The notes under the pieces are model-generated. The model ran no database searches. It saw nothing but the letters and a program-made list of their open reading frames with translations, and had not been told where the DNA came from. A stretch of DNA of 32,223 nucleotides from Uliginosibacterium gangwonense. GTDB taxonomy: Bacteria > Pseudomonadota > Gammaproteobacteria > Burkholderiales > Rhodocyclaceae. The stretch covers positions 1 to 32,223 of the forward strand of contig DYIB01000026.1 of assembly GCA_020723855.1 (NCBI GenBank), given 5' to 3'. A program made the translations under genes and the position numbers. Below, one piece after another: positions 5,220 to 22,573 of the stretch (position 1 is the first letter of the stretch; every line of letters starts with the position of its first letter).

Positions 5220-5821
5220 TCCTTCTTCTCGCCGATCTTGCTCTCGCGGCCTTCGCGCAGCTTCTGGATGTTCTCGCTGTGGCGCCAGAACAGCAGTATC
5301 GACATGCACAGCACCGCCGTCGTGTAATCGCCCCCGGACAGCATGATGACGGCGAGCAGCGGCGCGGCGCTGGCGGCGGCCAGCGCCGCCAGCGAGGAAT
5401 AGCGGAAAGCGGCGGCCACCGCGACCCACACGGCCAGCACCGCCAGCCCCAGCCACGGATCGAAGCCGAACAGCACCCCGGCCGCCGTGGCCACGCCCTT
5501 GCCACCGCGGAAACCGAGGAAGACCGAGTGCAGGTGGCCGAAGAAGACGGCGAAACCGGCCAGGGCGATGTCGGAAGCCGCCAGGCCGTACTGGGGCGCC
5601 AACGCTCTTGCCAGAAGCACGGCCACCAGGCCCTTGCCGGCATCGCCCAGCAGGGTGAGCAGGGCGGCCAGTTTGTTGCCGGTGCGCAGCACATTGGTGG
5701 CGCCCGGGTTGCCCGAGCCATAGCTGCGCGGATCGGCGAGGCCGAACACGCGGCTGACGATCACTGCGAAAGGAATCGAGCCGATGAGATAGGAGACGAG
5801 GCCGACGATGAGTGTATTCAT
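5198..5821 (-). CDS. plsY: Glycerol-3-phosphate acyltransferase PlsY
   Basis: Inner-membrane enzyme that uses acyl phosphate to acylate glycerol-3-phosphate, the first step of phospholipid synthesis in the PlsX/PlsY route. 207 residues with about five membrane segments. Family motifs visible: [11 protein letters not shown], then [14 protein letters not shown] (phosphate loop), GDAGKG, and [14 protein letters not shown] charged tail of about 20 residues rich in Lys/Glu closes the protein. ATG at 5821. It converges on tsaD and is divergent from folB, separated from it by only 68 bases. Confidence 0.95.
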
Positions 5822-17765: not shown

Positions 17766-18326
17766 GTGGCCTCCGCTTCTCCCGGCGGCGATCTCGCCGC
17801 TCTGCTGGCGCGCACCGCCCTGGGCGAGCGTGCCGCCTTCGCCGAACTCTACCGTGCCGCCGGCGCGAAACTGTTTGGCTTCGCCCTGCGTATATTGACC
17901 AGACGGGACCTGGCGGAGGAATGCTTGCAGGAGGCCTTCGTCAGCATCTGGCGCCATGCCGGCGAGTTCCGCCCCGACCGGGCCCAGCCCATGACCTGGA
18001 TGACGACCATCGTACGCAACCGCGCCCTGGACATGCTGCGGGCGGCGCCGCCGGAAGACGGGCTGGGCGAAGAGGAGACCATGGAGCAATGGGCGGCGGC
18101 GGATCTGGGCCCCCTGGAGCGGGCGGTGGCAAGCCAGGAGGCGCGGGCGCTGATGCGCTGCCTGGAGCGCCTGGCACCGCGGCAACGCCAGGCCATCGCC
18201 CTGGGTTTCTTCCACGGCCTGGCCCACGAGGAGCTGGCCCGGCGCCTGGCCCAGCCCCTGGGCACCGTCAAGACCTGGATCCGGCGCGGACTACAGCAGT
18301 TGAAGAACTGCCTGGGTGAGCCATGA
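17766..18326 (+). CDS. ECF RNA polymerase sigma factor (RskA-controlled type)
   Basis: Alternative sigma factor. 186 residues with only region 2 (LYRAAGAKLFGFALRILTRR and LAEECLQEAFVSIWRHAGEF, about 29-68) and region 4 (RLAPRQRQAIALGFFHGLAH through the helix-turn-helix PLGTVKTWIRRGLQQLKNCL), as in ECF factors. Start GTG at 17766 chosen as the most upstream reasonable codon; GTG use and no strong ribosome site leave it slightly uncertain. Its stop overlaps the next gene, a membrane anti-sigma factor, as ATGA; this pairing is typical of the SigK/RskA class. Target promoters unknown. Confidence 0.93.
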   Translation: MASASPGGDLAALLARTALGERAAFAELYRAAGAKLFGFALRILTRRDLAEECLQEAFVSIWRHAGEFRPDRAQPMTWMTTIVRNRALDMLRAAPPEDGLGEEETMEQWAAADLGPLERAVASQEARALMRCLERLAPRQRQAIALGFFHGLAHEELARRLAQPLGTVKTWIRRGLQQLKNCLGEP

Positions 18327-19012
18327 GATACGACGATCCCGCGCTGCGCTCGGCCCTGGCCGCCGAATACGCCCTGGGCACCCTGAGGGGGGCGGCGCGC
18401 CGCCGCTTCGAGCGCCTGATCGCGGCCCATCCTTCCTGGCGGCGCGAGGTGGACCGATGGCAGACACGCCTGGCGGGGATGGCCGAGACGATTCCCGCCG
18501 TGGAACCGCCGCCGCGGCTATGGCGCACCATCGAGGCGCGGGTGCCCGGGTCGGCGGCCGACGGCCTGCAACGGGCGCTGCGCCGCTGGCGCGGCCTGGC
18601 GCTGGCTGCCACGGCGGCGGCCCTGATCCTGGGAACGGCCGTGGTGCTACGGCCGGCCCCGGCGCCCACCGGGGTCGCCCTGCTGTCCGATGCGGCGGCG
18701 CGCCCCGGCTGGGTGCTCACCCTGCAGCGCCGCGACGGGCGCGCCGAGCTGCAGGTGCGTGCGGCGGCACCGGCGCTGCCGGGTCCCGGGCAGGCCTACG
18801 AATTATGGCTGCTGCCCGGCGGCGGCGCGGCGCCCGTATCCCTGGGCCTGTTGCCGGCCGCCGGGGCCAGGACCGTGCCGCTCGATGCCGGCCAGGCCGC
18901 CATGCTGGCCAGGGCCCGAGGGCTGGCGGTGAGCCTCGAGCCGGCCGGCGGTTCGCCCACCGGCCAGCCCACAGGGCCCGTGGTGTACCAGGGCCGTCTC
19001 GACGAAGTCTGA
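18323..19012 (+). CDS. membrane-bound anti-sigma factor, RskA family
   Basis: 229 residues. Cytoplasmic N-terminal sigma-binding part (1-90; LAAEYALGTLRGAARRRFER), one membrane segment (91-109), and a periplasmic C-terminal domain typical of anti-sigma-K factors (GWVLTLQRRDGRAELQVRA, QAYELWLLPGGGAAPVSLGL). The zinc motif HxxxCxxC of many anti-sigma factors is absent, as usual for this class. It should hold the sigma factor at the membrane until proteolysis or a periplasmic signal frees it. Translationally coupled to the sigma gene (ATGA). Confidence 0.9.
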   Translation: MRYDDPALRSALAAEYALGTLRGAARRRFERLIAAHPSWRREVDRWQTRLAGMAETIPAVEPPPRLWRTIEARVPGSAADGLQRALRRWRGLALAATAAALILGTAVVLRPAPAPTGVALLSDAAARPGWVLTLQRRDGRAELQVRAAAPALPGPGQAYELWLLPGGGAAPVSLGLLPAAGARTVPLDAGQAAMLARARGLAVSLEPAGGSPTGQPTGPVVYQGRLDEV

Positions 19013-19104
19013 ATCCGATCGCCGTCCTCCTCCGTACAAGTGCCTGGGAGCGGAAGACCCATCGACCGCCCCGTTTCCTTCAACTTGAGACAAGGAGATT
19101 CATT

Positions 19105-19545
19105 ATGGGCACGATGTCGAAGATGATGGCGATCGCGACGATTTGCGGCTTTGTGCTGGCGGGCTGTGCCGGTACCGGCATGAAGACGGAGGCGTCCCTT
19201 TACGAGCGCCTGGGGGGCAAGCCGGCGATCGGCGCGGTGGTGGACGATTTCGTCGGCAACGTGGCGGCCGACCAGCGCATCAACGGCCGCTTCGCCAACA
19301 CCGATATTCCCCGCCTGAAGCGCCTGCTGGTGGAGCAGATCTGCGCCGGCACCGGCGGGCCCTGCACCTACACCGGTCGTGACATGCAGACGGCCCATGC
19401 GCGCATGAATATCACCGAGGCGGAGTTCGCCGCCCTGGTGGAGGATTTGGTGAAATCCCTGGACAAGTTCCGGGTGCCGGAGCGGGAGAAGGGTGAGCTG
19501 CTGAGCGCCCTGGCGGTCATGAAGCCCGACATCGTCGGGCGTTGA
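19105..19545 (+). CDS. group 1 truncated haemoglobin, lipoprotein form
   Basis: Haem protein of the 2-on-2 globin fold. 146 residues. A lipoprotein signal (about 1-20) ends in VLAG and C21, so the globin should sit in the periplasm attached to a membrane. Globin part: SLYERLGGKPAIGAVVDDFV, proximal His H98 in QTAHARMNI. Aligned by eye to mycobacterial trHbN, the distal positions B10, E7, E11 and E15 are V50, L71, L75 and I79, so Tyr B10 and Gln E11 are absent. C80 and C87 could form a disulfide. AAGGAG precedes ATG at 19105. It follows the anti-sigma gene by 92 bases and may belong to its regulon. Confidence 0.88.
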   Translation: MGTMSKMMAIATICGFVLAGCAGTGMKTEASLYERLGGKPAIGAVVDDFVGNVAADQRINGRFANTDIPRLKRLLVEQICAGTGGPCTYTGRDMQTAHARMNITEAEFAALVEDLVKSLDKFRVPEREKGELLSALAVMKPDIVGR

Positions 19546-19553
19546 CAGACCGT

Positions 19554-19580
19554 TGCGCCGGCGGTGCGACCGCCGGCGCA
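19554..19580. repeat. perfect 12-bp hairpin between convergent genes
   Basis: TGCGCCGGCGGT, 3-base loop, then its exact complement. It lies between the globin and the convergent 107-residue gene. No T-run on either strand, so if it ends transcription it does so as a GC-only stem from both sides. Confidence 0.55.
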
Positions 19581-19610
19581 GCCCCAGGTGGGGGGCGGGC
19601 GGCGCTACCG

Positions 19611-19934
19611 TCAGGCGGCACGCAGTTTGTTCGGCCTGGCGCAGTTGCGGCTGAAATGGAGCGCCAGGGTGCGGTACACCATCAGGGGCAGCAGCCACAC
19701 GCGGGTGTGGGCGCGCACCAGGGGCGCCAGGTTCTCGGCGGCATAGGCCGCAGGCGCTTCGGCCGCGATCAGCTCCAGGAAGCGCTGGACCGCCGCGGCG
19801 TAGTAGTCGGAGGTCCCGACCCAGCCGGTCTTGACGGTGGCGTCCCTGACCGCCTCCCGCCACAAGGCCTCGGCGCGCTTATCGCTGATGCCCGTGCGGC
19901 GGGCATGCCAGGTAACAATCATCGGTGTTTTCAT
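19611..19934 (-). CDS. conserved hypothetical protein (107 residues)
   Basis: No function recognised. From ATG at 19934 (AAGGAG upstream) it reads MKTPMIVTWHARRTGISDKR, then a helical acidic/basic part with WVGTSDYYAAAVQRFLELIA, and a basic C-terminus (HTRVWLLPLMVYRTLALHFS, then NCARPNKLRAA). No signal peptide, no clear membrane segment, one Cys. A longer frame from 20015 exists, but its extra residues look like leader sequence. It is convergent with the globin gene. The region upstream carries an FNR-type box at -41.5 of a candidate promoter, so expression under low oxygen is plausible. Confidence 0.7.
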   Translation of the reverse strand: MKTPMIVTWHARRTGISDKRAEALWREAVRDATVKTGWVGTSDYYAAAVQRFLELIAAEAPAAYAAENLAPLVRAHTRVWLLPLMVYRTLALHFSRNCARPNKLRAA

Positions 19935-20157: not shown

Positions 20158-20215
20158 ACTGTGCTGCAACATGGAACGGGAGAAGACCTTCGGCGGGTGG
20201 CTTCCCGGCGGAAGG

Positions 20216-20221
20216 TATAAT
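20216..20221 (+). promoter_or_regulatory. uvrD promoter (-10 box)
   Basis: Perfect TATAAT 25 bases before the uvrD ATG at 20246; no good -35. Its position inside the longer open frame argues against the upstream ATG at 20171. Confidence 0.42.
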
Positions 20222-20245
20222 GGCCGCTACTTCCGATCGCAGCCG

Positions 20246-22573
20246 ATGTCGAATTTTCTCCGCGGACTCAATCCCGAGCAGCTCGCCGCCGTCACCCTGC
20301 CGCCTCAGCACGCCCTGATCCTGGCCGGGGCGGGCAGCGGCAAGACCCGGGTGCTCACCACCCGCATCGCCTGGCTGATCCAGACCGGCCAGGTCTCGCC
20401 CCAGGGCGTGCTGGCGGTGACCTTCACCAACAAGGCGGCCAAGGAGATGCTGGCGCGCCTGTCCGCCATGCTGCCCATCGATACCCGCGGCATGTGGATC
20501 GGCACCTTCCACGGCCTGTGCAACCGGCTGCTGCGCGCCCACCACCGGGACGCCGGCCTGCCCCAGTTGTTCCAGATCCTCGATTCCGCCGACCAACTGG
20601 CCGCCATCAAGCGCCTGCTCAAGACGCTCAACGTGGACGACGAGAAATTTCCGCCGCGGGAGCTGATGCATTTCATCAACGCCCAGAAGGAGGCGGGCCT
20701 GCGCCCCCACGCGGTGGAGGCCCGGGACGACTATACGCGCCGGCGCAGTGAGCTGTACCAGGCCTACGAGGCCCAGTGCCAGCGCGAGGGTGTGGTGGAC
20801 TTCGCCGAGCTGCTGCTGCGCTGCCACGAGCTGCTGGAGCGCAACGAGATCCTGCGGCGCCATTACCAGGCACGCTTCCGCCACATCCTGGTGGACGAGT
20901 TCCAGGACACCAATGCGCTCCAGTACCGCTGGCTCAAGCTGCTCGCCGGCTACAACGAACGCAGTCCGGCCGCCGGGCCGCCCCAAGGCCGGACGGCACG
21001 AGGCGGAGCCGTGCCGGGCACTGAAGTCGTTTCGGAGTCGCCCGTGATTTCCTCGCGCAGCGAGCAAATCGTCTCCCCTCCCGTGAAGGAGGGGACGGGG
21101 GCGGGCGGGTGTATCTTCGCTGTGGGGGATGACGACCAGTCGATCTATGCCTTCCGCGGCGCCGAGGTGGGCAACATGCGCGACTTCGAGCGCGAGTTCC
21201 GGGTGCACCACGTGATCCGCCTGGAGCAGAACTACCGCTCCCACGGCAACATCCTCGATGCCGCCAATGCCATCATCAAGCACAACGTGTCGCGCCTGGG
21301 CAAGAACCTATGGACCAACGCCGGCGCCGGCGAGCCGATCCGCGTGTTCGAGGCCTACGGCGACGGCGACGAGGCACGCTGGATCGTGGAGGAAGTGAAG
21401 GCCCTGTCCCTGGACGGCGTGGCGCGCCGGGAGGTGGCCCTGCTGTACCGCTCCAATGCCCAGTCGCGCGTGCTGGAGCATGCCCTGTTTTCCGCCGGCA
21501 TTCCCTACCGCGTCTATGGGGGGCTGCGCTTCTTCGAGCGCCAGGAGATCAAGCATGCCCTGGCCTATCTGCGCCTCATCGCCAATCCGGACGACGACAC
21601 CGCCTTCCTGCGGGTGGTGAATTTTCCGGCGCGCGGCATCGGTGCGCGCTCCCTGGAGCAACTGCAGGACGCGGCGCGCGCCCGGGGCAGCAGCCTCTAC
21701 GGCGCCGTGCCCCACCTGGCCGGCAAGGCGGGCGCCACCGTGGGCCAGTTCGTGCAGCTTCTGGGGCGGCTCAAGGACACTGCCGCGGGCCTGGCACTGC
21801 CCGAGATCGTGGAAGCCGTGCTCGATTCTTCCGGGCTGCGCGCCCACTATCAGGCGGAGAAGGAAGGCCAGGACCGGCTCGCCAACCTGAACGAGCTGAT
21901 CAACGCCGCGGCCAACTTCGTTGCCGAAGAGGATGACGTCTCCCTGGCGTCCTTCCTGGCCCATGCTTCCCTGGAGGCGGGCGAGCATCAGGCGGGCGAG
22001 GGCGACGACGCCCTGCAGCTCATGACCGTCCATGCCGCCAAGGGCCTGGAATTCGACGTGGTGTTCCTGAGCGGGCTGGAGGAGGGACTGTTCCCCCACG
22101 AACAGTCGACCCTCGAGCCAGAGGGCCTGGAGGAGGAACGCCGCCTCATGTATGTGGCCGTGACACGGGCACGCAAACGGCTCTACCTGTCCTATGCCCA
22201 GACGCGCATGCTGCACGGGCAATCGCGCTACAACCTGCCTTCGCGCTTCCTGGAGGAGATCCCCGAAGGGCTGCTGAAATGGCTCACGCCCAAGTCGGGC
22301 AGGGGCGGCCGGGCGTGGGGCGCCGCGCAGGCCGGGTACGCCGGTGCGCCGGCGGGCTACAACGGCGCGTGCTCCAGGACGGCGGACCGCGACAGGAACG
22401 CAGCCGCAACGGGCGGCTTGCGTGTCGGTCAAACCGTGACCCACCCCAGGTTCGGCCAGGGCGTGATCGTCGATGCCGAGGGCGCCGGGTCGGACGCGCG
22501 GGTGCAGGTGAATTTCGGCCGCGAGGGCATGAAGTGGCTGGCGCTCTCCGTGGCCAAGCTGACACCCGTCTAA
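20246..22573 (+). CDS. uvrD: DNA helicase II, UvrD/PcrA family, with an in-frame insert
   Basis: ATP-driven 3'-5' helicase for mismatch and excision repair. 775 residues. Walker A AGAGSGKT 27-34; motif Ib TFHG 87-90; Walker B VDEFQD 216-221; motif III GDDDQSIYAFRG from 294; LEQNYRS; late motifs TVHAAKGLEFDVVFL and YVAVTRARKRLYLSYAQTR; a C-terminal Tudor-like domain (VGQTVTHPRFGQGVIVDAEG) as in UvrD/PcrA. ATG at 20246 is chosen because the protein then starts MSNFLRGLNPEQ and TATAAT lies just upstream. Odd: about 50 extra residues (near 238-288), low-complexity and rich in Gly, Pro and Ser, separate motif II from motif III, where E. coli UvrD has about seven residues. Confidence 0.95.
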   Translation: MSNFLRGLNPEQLAAVTLPPQHALILAGAGSGKTRVLTTRIAWLIQTGQVSPQGVLAVTFTNKAAKEMLARLSAMLPIDTRGMWIGTFHGLCNRLLRAHHRDAGLPQLFQILDSADQLAAIKRLLKTLNVDDEKFPPRELMHFINAQKEAGLRPHAVEARDDYTRRRSELYQAYEAQCQREGVVDFAELLLRCHELLERNEILRRHYQARFRHILVDEFQDTNALQYRWLKLLAGYNERSPAAGPPQGRTARGGAVPGTEVVSESPVISSRSEQIVSPPVKEGTGAGGCIFAVGDDDQSIYAFRGAEVGNMRDFEREFRVHHVIRLEQNYRSHGNILDAANAIIKHNVSRLGKNLWTNAGAGEPIRVFEAYGDGDEARWIVEEVKALSLDGVARREVALLYRSNAQSRVLEHALFSAGIPYRVYGGLRFFERQEIKHALAYLRLIANPDDDTAFLRVVNFPARGIGARSLEQLQDAARARGSSLYGAVPHLAGKAGATVGQFVQLLGRLKDTAAGLALPEIVEAVLDSSGLRAHYQAEKEGQDRLANLNELINAAANFVAEEDDVSLASFLAHASLEAGEHQAGEGDDALQLMTVHAAKGLEFDVVFLSGLEEGLFPHEQSTLEPEGLEEERRLMYVAVTRARKRLYLSYAQTRMLHGQSRYNLPSRFLEEIPEGLLKWLTPKSGRGGRAWGAAQAGYAGAPAGYNGACSRTADRDRNAAATGGLRVGQTVTHPRFGQGVIVDAEGAGSDARVQVNFGREGMKWLALSVAKLTPV
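20964..21095 (+). repeat. palindromic element inserted in frame in uvrD
   Basis: Three inverted repeats in a row: GTCCGGCC (20964-20971) with GGCCGGAC (20987-20994); GGCACG (20995-21000) with CGTGCC (21010-21015); TCCCCTCC (21074-21081) with GGAGGGGA (21088-21095). Together they fill the segment that makes this helicase longer than its family. It resembles short intergenic palindromic repeats of GC-rich proteobacteria, here read as protein. Confidence 0.65.

Follow-up and report, generated by a model that had tools for sequence, protein, structure and literature searches.

The uvrD gene in a 32,223-nt stretch of Uliginosibacterium gangwonense DNA (contig DYIB01000026.1; the whole stretch is referred to as the window) carries, translated in frame between helicase motifs II and III, a full copy of a dispersed palindromic element of ~147 bp that is normally intergenic (type A), and several different repeats occupy the same UvrD loop across the bacterial family of the window. 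The account that we consider probable is that a palindromic repeat lodged in a permissive UvrD loop, where several repeats are found, and that the resulting alleles have been inherited, exchanged and lost. The idea of the initial annotation, a mobile-type palindromic repeat turned into protein and comparable in principle to the Rickettsia palindromic elements (RPE), is borne out by the dispersed homologues and the in-frame state described below.

The gene was assigned as UvrD-like from TIGR01075 (981.7 bits, below the cut-off of 1144) and the Pfam domains PF00580, PF13361 and PF21196, and the true start may be residue 26 (MSNFLRGL). Between VDEFQDTN and GDDDQSIY, the former and VGDDDQSIY being taken by us to be motifs II and III, the window protein has 77 residues, whereas the same interval spans 27–36 residues in 89 of 92 loci, the other exceptions being G009 (52) and L113 (63); about 50 codons are therefore extra, as had been proposed at the outset, and the same count speaks against an insert conserved throughout the family. 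Further long intervals were found in G018 (76), G023 (56) and G021 (43). Alignment of E. coli UvrD (3lfu) to the window protein stops at residue 261 and resumes at residue 310. The reading frame is intact through the insert and the helicase motifs are all intact, both as first described. GC content by codon position was 0.75/0.69/0.76 in the insert compared with 0.71/0.44/0.89 in the rest of uvrD, and this lack of coding periodicity was a first sign of a non-coding origin. Upstream of uvrD, beyond the gene that holds the insert, lies a frame (18316–19545) whose C-terminal part resembles what we take to be a truncated-globin lipoprotein.

Table 1. Positions in the window of the uvrD gene, the presumed motifs flanking the loop and the elements of the insert
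Feature	Position	Strand	Remarks
uvrD ORF with insert	20171..22573	+	800 aa
Presumed motif II, VDEFQDTN, residues 241–248	20891..20914	+	VDEFQDT invariant in alignment
Presumed motif III, VGDDDQSIY, residues 318–326	21122..21148	+	Invariant in alignment
Type A palindromic element, model positions 1–147, translated in frame	20960..21106	+	89.4 bits, E 1.2e-15
Hairpin 1, GTCCGGCC/GGCCGGAC, conserved loop CGCCGGGCCGCCCCAA	20964..20994 (arms 20964–20971/20987–20994)	+	Read from sequence; helix 1 of covariation analysis
Hairpin 2, GGC GGA GCC	21002..21010	+	Sequence; helix 3 of covariation analysis
CTCGC GCA GCGAG, a variant form of the CGAGCGCAGCGAGC box found in the other copies	21053..21064	+	Sequence
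Hairpin 3, TCCCCTCC/GGAGGGGA	21074..21095 (arms 21074–21081/21088–21095)	+	Helix 6 of covariation analysis

The coordinates originally given for the insert (20957–21109) and its inverted repeats were confirmed, with the arms located in the sequence. In addition to the hairpins of Table 1, an inverted repeat CGGCACG/CGTGCCG is present at 20994–21000/21010–21016, and a G-rich tail follows hairpin 3 and reaches 21109. The insert contains two perfect 8-bp arm pairs, a number equalled in 62 of 2000 shuffles, and its fold z-score is −1.04; because of these values the palindromes alone are weak evidence, and what lies beyond chance is the homology to dispersed repeats together with the covariation. 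Elsewhere in the window, at 5254–5508 and 19432–19686, clusters of perfect 8-bp inverted repeats are denser than in the insert.

When the insert was searched as DNA against 61 genomes, 17 of them, including the window genome, had matches at E ≤ 0.01, some of the weakest being short or doubtful (e.g. G035). The better copies share a layout consisting of a variable stem enclosing CGCCGGGCCGCCCCAA, then another, short hairpin, the CGAGCGCAGCGAGC box, a hairpin of the CCCCTCCC..GGGAGGGG type and a G-rich tail; nine of ten excised copies were 128–153 bp long and the tenth (L063) was partial. A covariance model, R1, was built from eight copies, all outside UvrD, and detected over its full length both the window insert, with the score given in Table 1, and the UvrD insert of G018 (90.2 bits, E 8.4e-16). 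Compensation in the stems was strong across 55 matches (54 distinct), in an alignment that is fitted to the model and hence biased toward it: 91.9% of cells were paired, and two-sided changes were seen in 199 cells, compared with 51 in shuffles and 24–44 when partners were slid. Helix 1 had two-sided changes at eight of its ten pairs among the 54 distinct copies; here the sequence varies freely while pairing is kept, with only five G-U cells (columns 7–12), a pattern suggestive of DNA-level change and not of selection on RNA. The first stem mostly opens with GCAG, the second pair being C-G in 37 and U-G in 12 of 54 copies, and at most about a fifth of type A copies could, as judged from these letters, read GTAG. 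The RAYT domain (PF01797) was present in 9 of 18 genomes and absent from nine, including G018, G342, G104, G097 and G308. The frames with PF01797 in G000 (the window genome) and G009 (124–153 aa) resemble what we assume to be IS200 transposases. A link between RAYT and type A was set aside, there being no clear correlation across the 18 genomes.

Searching 37 genomes with R1 gave matches at E ≤ 0.01 in 13; among ten more, seven had matches at E ≤ 1e-5 and G314, G097 and G076 had none. The matches at E ≤ 1e-5, which are lower bounds since 150 candidates were scored per genome, and which include the UvrD copy where present, numbered at least 138 in G235, 62 in G089, 8 in G104, 6 in G333, 4 in G342, 4 in G137 and 1 in G359, where the UvrD copy was the only such match among the candidates scored. 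The expectation that the element would have further copies thus held for relatives but not for the window genome itself, whose 84%-complete assembly contains no second full copy (next DNA match, E 0.137). That genome does contain four hairpins of 74–78 nt, scoring 33–40 bits, with a related loop (e.g. CGCCGAGCCGCCTCAAG) at G000:C18:10226, C20:6682, C132:597 and C48:803 (L194–L197), which are perhaps its own intergenic repeat of a related kind. The look into intergenic DNA that had been suggested was productive: type A copies were found beside a gene of the FtsW/RodA family in G009 and beside DPBB/SPOR genes in G028, G026 and G016, and two copies adjoin enolase in G018. The copies of G028, G026, G016 and G009 (L200, L201, L204 and L205) perhaps mark one ancestral position between genes that we take to be rodA and rlpA. 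In G025, at least four copies of a related hairpin unit lie in tandem and recur every ~148 bp (L055, G025:C1 from about 769241). When eight loci were searched against Rfam on both strands with E up to 1, no match reached a gathering score; the sole match, a snoRNA below its gathering score, lay outside the element.

For the survey of relatives, a UvrD segment without the insert served as query against the window's family, where 394 of 395 genomes matched. Follow-up covered 44 of the 394, namely 40 with best E values of ~1e-49 to 1e-71 and four weaker ones; seventeen weaker-scoring genomes and three of group g15 (1e-71 to 1e-73) lay outside it. An enlarged loop was present in 39 of the 44, so that 39 of 394 is a lower bound, and as the count needed an open frame, out-of-frame insertions do not enter it. 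These 39 comprise 36 genomes with loops of 43–114 residues plus G023, G095 and G089, the last with two tandem type A copies at a contig start; the loop was normal in G408, G363 and G116, only a paralogue was found in G071, and G248 was unreadable. Within the loop, the type A model matched in 13 genomes at E < 0.1, eight of them below 1e-5, and in G359 and G089 two successive type A copies share one open frame. A repeat of ~40 bp, B1, forms the insert in nine genomes, and another, B2, in three (G009, G308 and G296, the latter two assigned by eye). A further repeat occupies the UvrD loop of L113 in G061, which is outside the family set. The other long loops were fragments, REP-like pieces or plain low-complexity stretches, and no own-genome source was found for the insert of G021. 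All type A copies in UvrD share one orientation.

With the UvrD copy counted where present, B2 matched 80 times in G009 (~40 places, many palindromes being hit on both strands), the L113 repeat 32 times in G061, and B1 2–17 times in each of 12 genomes, three of them without a UvrD insert. B2 resembles a 3′ portion of type A in inverted orientation (score 28 against up to 22 in shuffles), and the proposal of four mutually unrelated repeats at the loop was dropped for this reason. B1 is indistinguishable from shuffles in its likeness to type A (20–21 against up to 23), and the G061 repeat has no likeness to it (16 against up to 21).

Other possible hosts were compared with UvrD. Across 35 of these genomes, 40 paralogue hits crossing the equivalent loop differed from the query by only −5 to +4 residues. 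Coding frames were scored by codon usage trained on 24 loci (L076–L099), a coarse measure, since in 21 of 44 cases one flank or both scored weakly; by this score no coding frame open on both sides contained any of the 43 non-UvrD type A copies scored in G235, which has at least 137, or any of 47 other copies from eleven genomes, whereas the UvrD copy, scored as the 44th of the G235 set, was flagged as in frame. With 0 of 90 copies outside UvrD in a coding frame, UvrD may be a special host and not simply a permissive one. The same scan of G009 covered 42 places (38 B2, UvrD and three matches to the type A model) and flagged nine, including UvrD; of the other eight, two are genes by Pfam and six resemble antisense frames by eye. 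In both genes, B2 is translated as a peptide of the LPSPASGRGAGGEG type: a WaaA-like kdotransferase (PF04413; L317, G009 230429–230471) and an MmeI-like DNA methylase (PF20473; L319, G009 2806143–2806183).

At the protein level, pN/pS pooled over six pairs was 0.72 in the insert, a ratio that a low insert pS would inflate if the DNA is constrained, compared with 0.04–0.32 in the rest of UvrD. Two further pairs were computed and left unpooled; the values of single pairs, based on small counts, lay between 0.31 and 2.51, with one undefined. An AlphaFold model from a 29-row alignment (overall pTM 0.52) placed residues 264–310 below a pLDDT of 50, so that the insert is predicted to be disordered, between a predicted helix (249–259) and a predicted strand (314–320), and its best PDB matches were UvrD. 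In this fold the loop connects the helix that follows motif II with the beginning of the strand leading to motif III, and it should lie at the end away from the nucleotide rather than beside the ATPase site as first suggested. The best-supported view of these calculations and predictions is that the insert acts as near-neutral filler in a permissive loop, and the protein is presumably made and working normally.

The history of the loop was approached through a quick-search tree of UvrD with the loop excluded (93 rows, in which congeners without the insert had been chosen deliberately). At least 18 changes between repeat and no-repeat states were counted, with the weak case G076 taken as type A, G074 as repeat, and G089 and 'other' loops omitted; parsimony is unable to separate gain from loss in this count. 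Close pairs of unlike state include G352/G001, G018/G104, G235/G333, G308/G097 and G070/G192. Most sisters without an insert have a uniform 12-residue loop, and no repeat remnant was seen in those loops that were read. Type A copies in UvrD were alike at 0.81 for both G000–G342 and G018–G137, compared with 0.69–0.72 to own-genome copies (none sampled for G000), while the G235 UvrD copy had its nearest counterpart among own-genome copies (0.79, against 0.76 for the best UvrD copy) and that of G089 was undecided (0.73 against 0.74); each own-genome value comes from a sampled subset of that genome's type A copies. A single clade of type A UvrD copies was not rejected (AU p 0.37), and the element tree accordingly gave no proof of independent type A insertions.

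The sequence flanking B1 was also informative. In four B1 carriers from different genera (G138, G172, G148 and G181), the 36 nt upstream are alike at 0.94–0.97, compared with 0.53–0.61 to their nearest relatives without the insert, and the 300 nt further upstream are alike at 0.79–0.88 in both comparisons. The other carriers (G070, G352, G393, G318 and G402) gave 0.69–0.86 over the 36 nt, and in G352 this stretch is nearer to its no-insert relative (0.78) than to carriers (0.72). In the UvrD genes of the first four (L228, L240, L241 and L252), native upstream codons form a hairpin, ACCGCCTGCAA..TTGCAGGCGGT or similar, and this native-codon hairpin is nearly identical across three groups. Synonymous divergence was lower in the insert than in the gene in all eight pairs (two only slightly so, and G009 was used twice), the lowest value being 0.00 compared with 0.27 for the gene in G009–G296. 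The simplest reading is that short stretches were exchanged between species, and some alleles have probably been swapped between genera; constraint on DNA hairpins could alternatively account for the low insert divergence. Exchange rather than loss alone would explain the scatter of alleles.

In the sequence of events that we propose, an element of ~147 bp, normally intergenic, would have inserted into the UvrD loop that separates motifs II and III, or reached it by recombination, with an orientation and frame free of stop codons that would allow its translation as a disordered loop of ~50 residues. Different repeats could then have settled there in related lineages because the loop tolerates them, and the resulting alleles would have descended within lineages, moved between species and been lost.

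Other explanations bear on parts of this evidence. A target at the DNA level, where GC-rich codons from LLAG to GGGA attract hairpin elements or template-switch events, would suit the fact that all insert types start directly after LLAG (LAS in G314) and the native-codon hairpin of the B1 alleles; we regard it as unlikely, since no target duplication was visible in the 11 pairs with and without insert that were read, the flanks of which have diverged. It is unlikely, too, that the insert is favoured, with repeats altering UvrD activity or partners (e.g. a mutator or recombination-prone state) and selection keeping or restoring them. The same gene and loop are hit in at least 39 of 394 genomes, no type A copy elsewhere scored as lying inside a gene among the 90 examined and the paralogue loop is unaffected, and the available text of PMC3733652 suggests something similar for REP-tagged repair genes; against this, the residues evolve near-neutrally and vary by repeat type, and close sisters lack the insert. 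A bolder version, which we hold to be quite unlikely, makes the UvrD loop a dedicated landing and exchange site, where hairpin repeats, including at least two that are unrelated to each other, are repeatedly installed and then cross genera as short cassettes, as the hairpins or the altered helicase aid persistence or spread of the repeats.

One or a few ancestral insertions followed by many losses, without recurrent insertion or exchange, would accord with the AU test and with the likeness of B2 to an inverted part of type A. This is improbable given that different repeats occupy the site, that of G061 being unrelated to type A, that most no-insert sisters share the uniform 12-residue loop, and that four of the nine B1 carriers are alike across genera close to the insert to a degree not matched above it. 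Some loops (G083, G133, G275, G398, G240, G023 and G109) resemble low-complexity stretches by eye, as an ordinary lineage-specific loop might; for the window, such a loop or an assembly artefact was ruled out by the match to a dispersed family at E 1.2e-15, and with in-frame inserts also present in the one-contig genomes G009, G107 and G172 we take this explanation to be extremely improbable.

If a palindromic repeat did lodge in a permissive UvrD loop as proposed, the locus amounts to a replicated natural experiment on non-coding repeats becoming protein, with one site, several repeats, and sister species with and without the insert. The type A element itself combines a conserved loop with stems that vary widely yet stay paired, and has no Rfam family in the eight loci searched. 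Neither a repeat hotspot in the UvrD loop nor the type A element was found in the open-access literature.

Several known systems are close to this case. According to the parts of PMC2229807 available, RPEs are palindromic, 105–146 bp long, and lie between genes as well as in frame in conserved proteins, where they are apparently tolerated. Type A is likewise palindromic and occurs between genes and, in frame, within a conserved gene, but RPEs hit many genes of a Rickettsia host, whereas the full type A element was found only in UvrD among the genes scored, and in another host. The same text describes MITEs of the ERIC/Correia type as short, non-autonomous and structured, sometimes with in-frame gene fusions; type A differs in being without terminal inverted repeats, its ends CGCAGTCC and GGGCGGG not being complementary by reading, and no target duplication was visible in the 11 pairs read, whose flanks have diverged. 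MITEs of Coxiella are described in PMC5896051, as far as its available text goes. Also close is PMC3733652 (2013), whose accessible portions report GTAG/CGTC REPs within genes, often ones for repair, name UvrD/REP helicase, note inserts in Thauera and describe recB genes of two Xanthomonas that share roughly one insertion position. Repeats within UvrD-type genes have thus been known since 2013, and the suggestion made then, that repair genes are not hit by palindromes by accident, can now be examined in one gene with matched pairs. The type A family and the recurrence at one site look new, and the list of species in that paper may include some of the UvrD cases here. In both systems, repair genes contain palindromic repeats that are translated in frame; the REPs of that text are 20–40 bp long, whereas type A measures ~147 bp and has several hairpins, and in the present case a single loop accommodates several repeats across a bacterial family.
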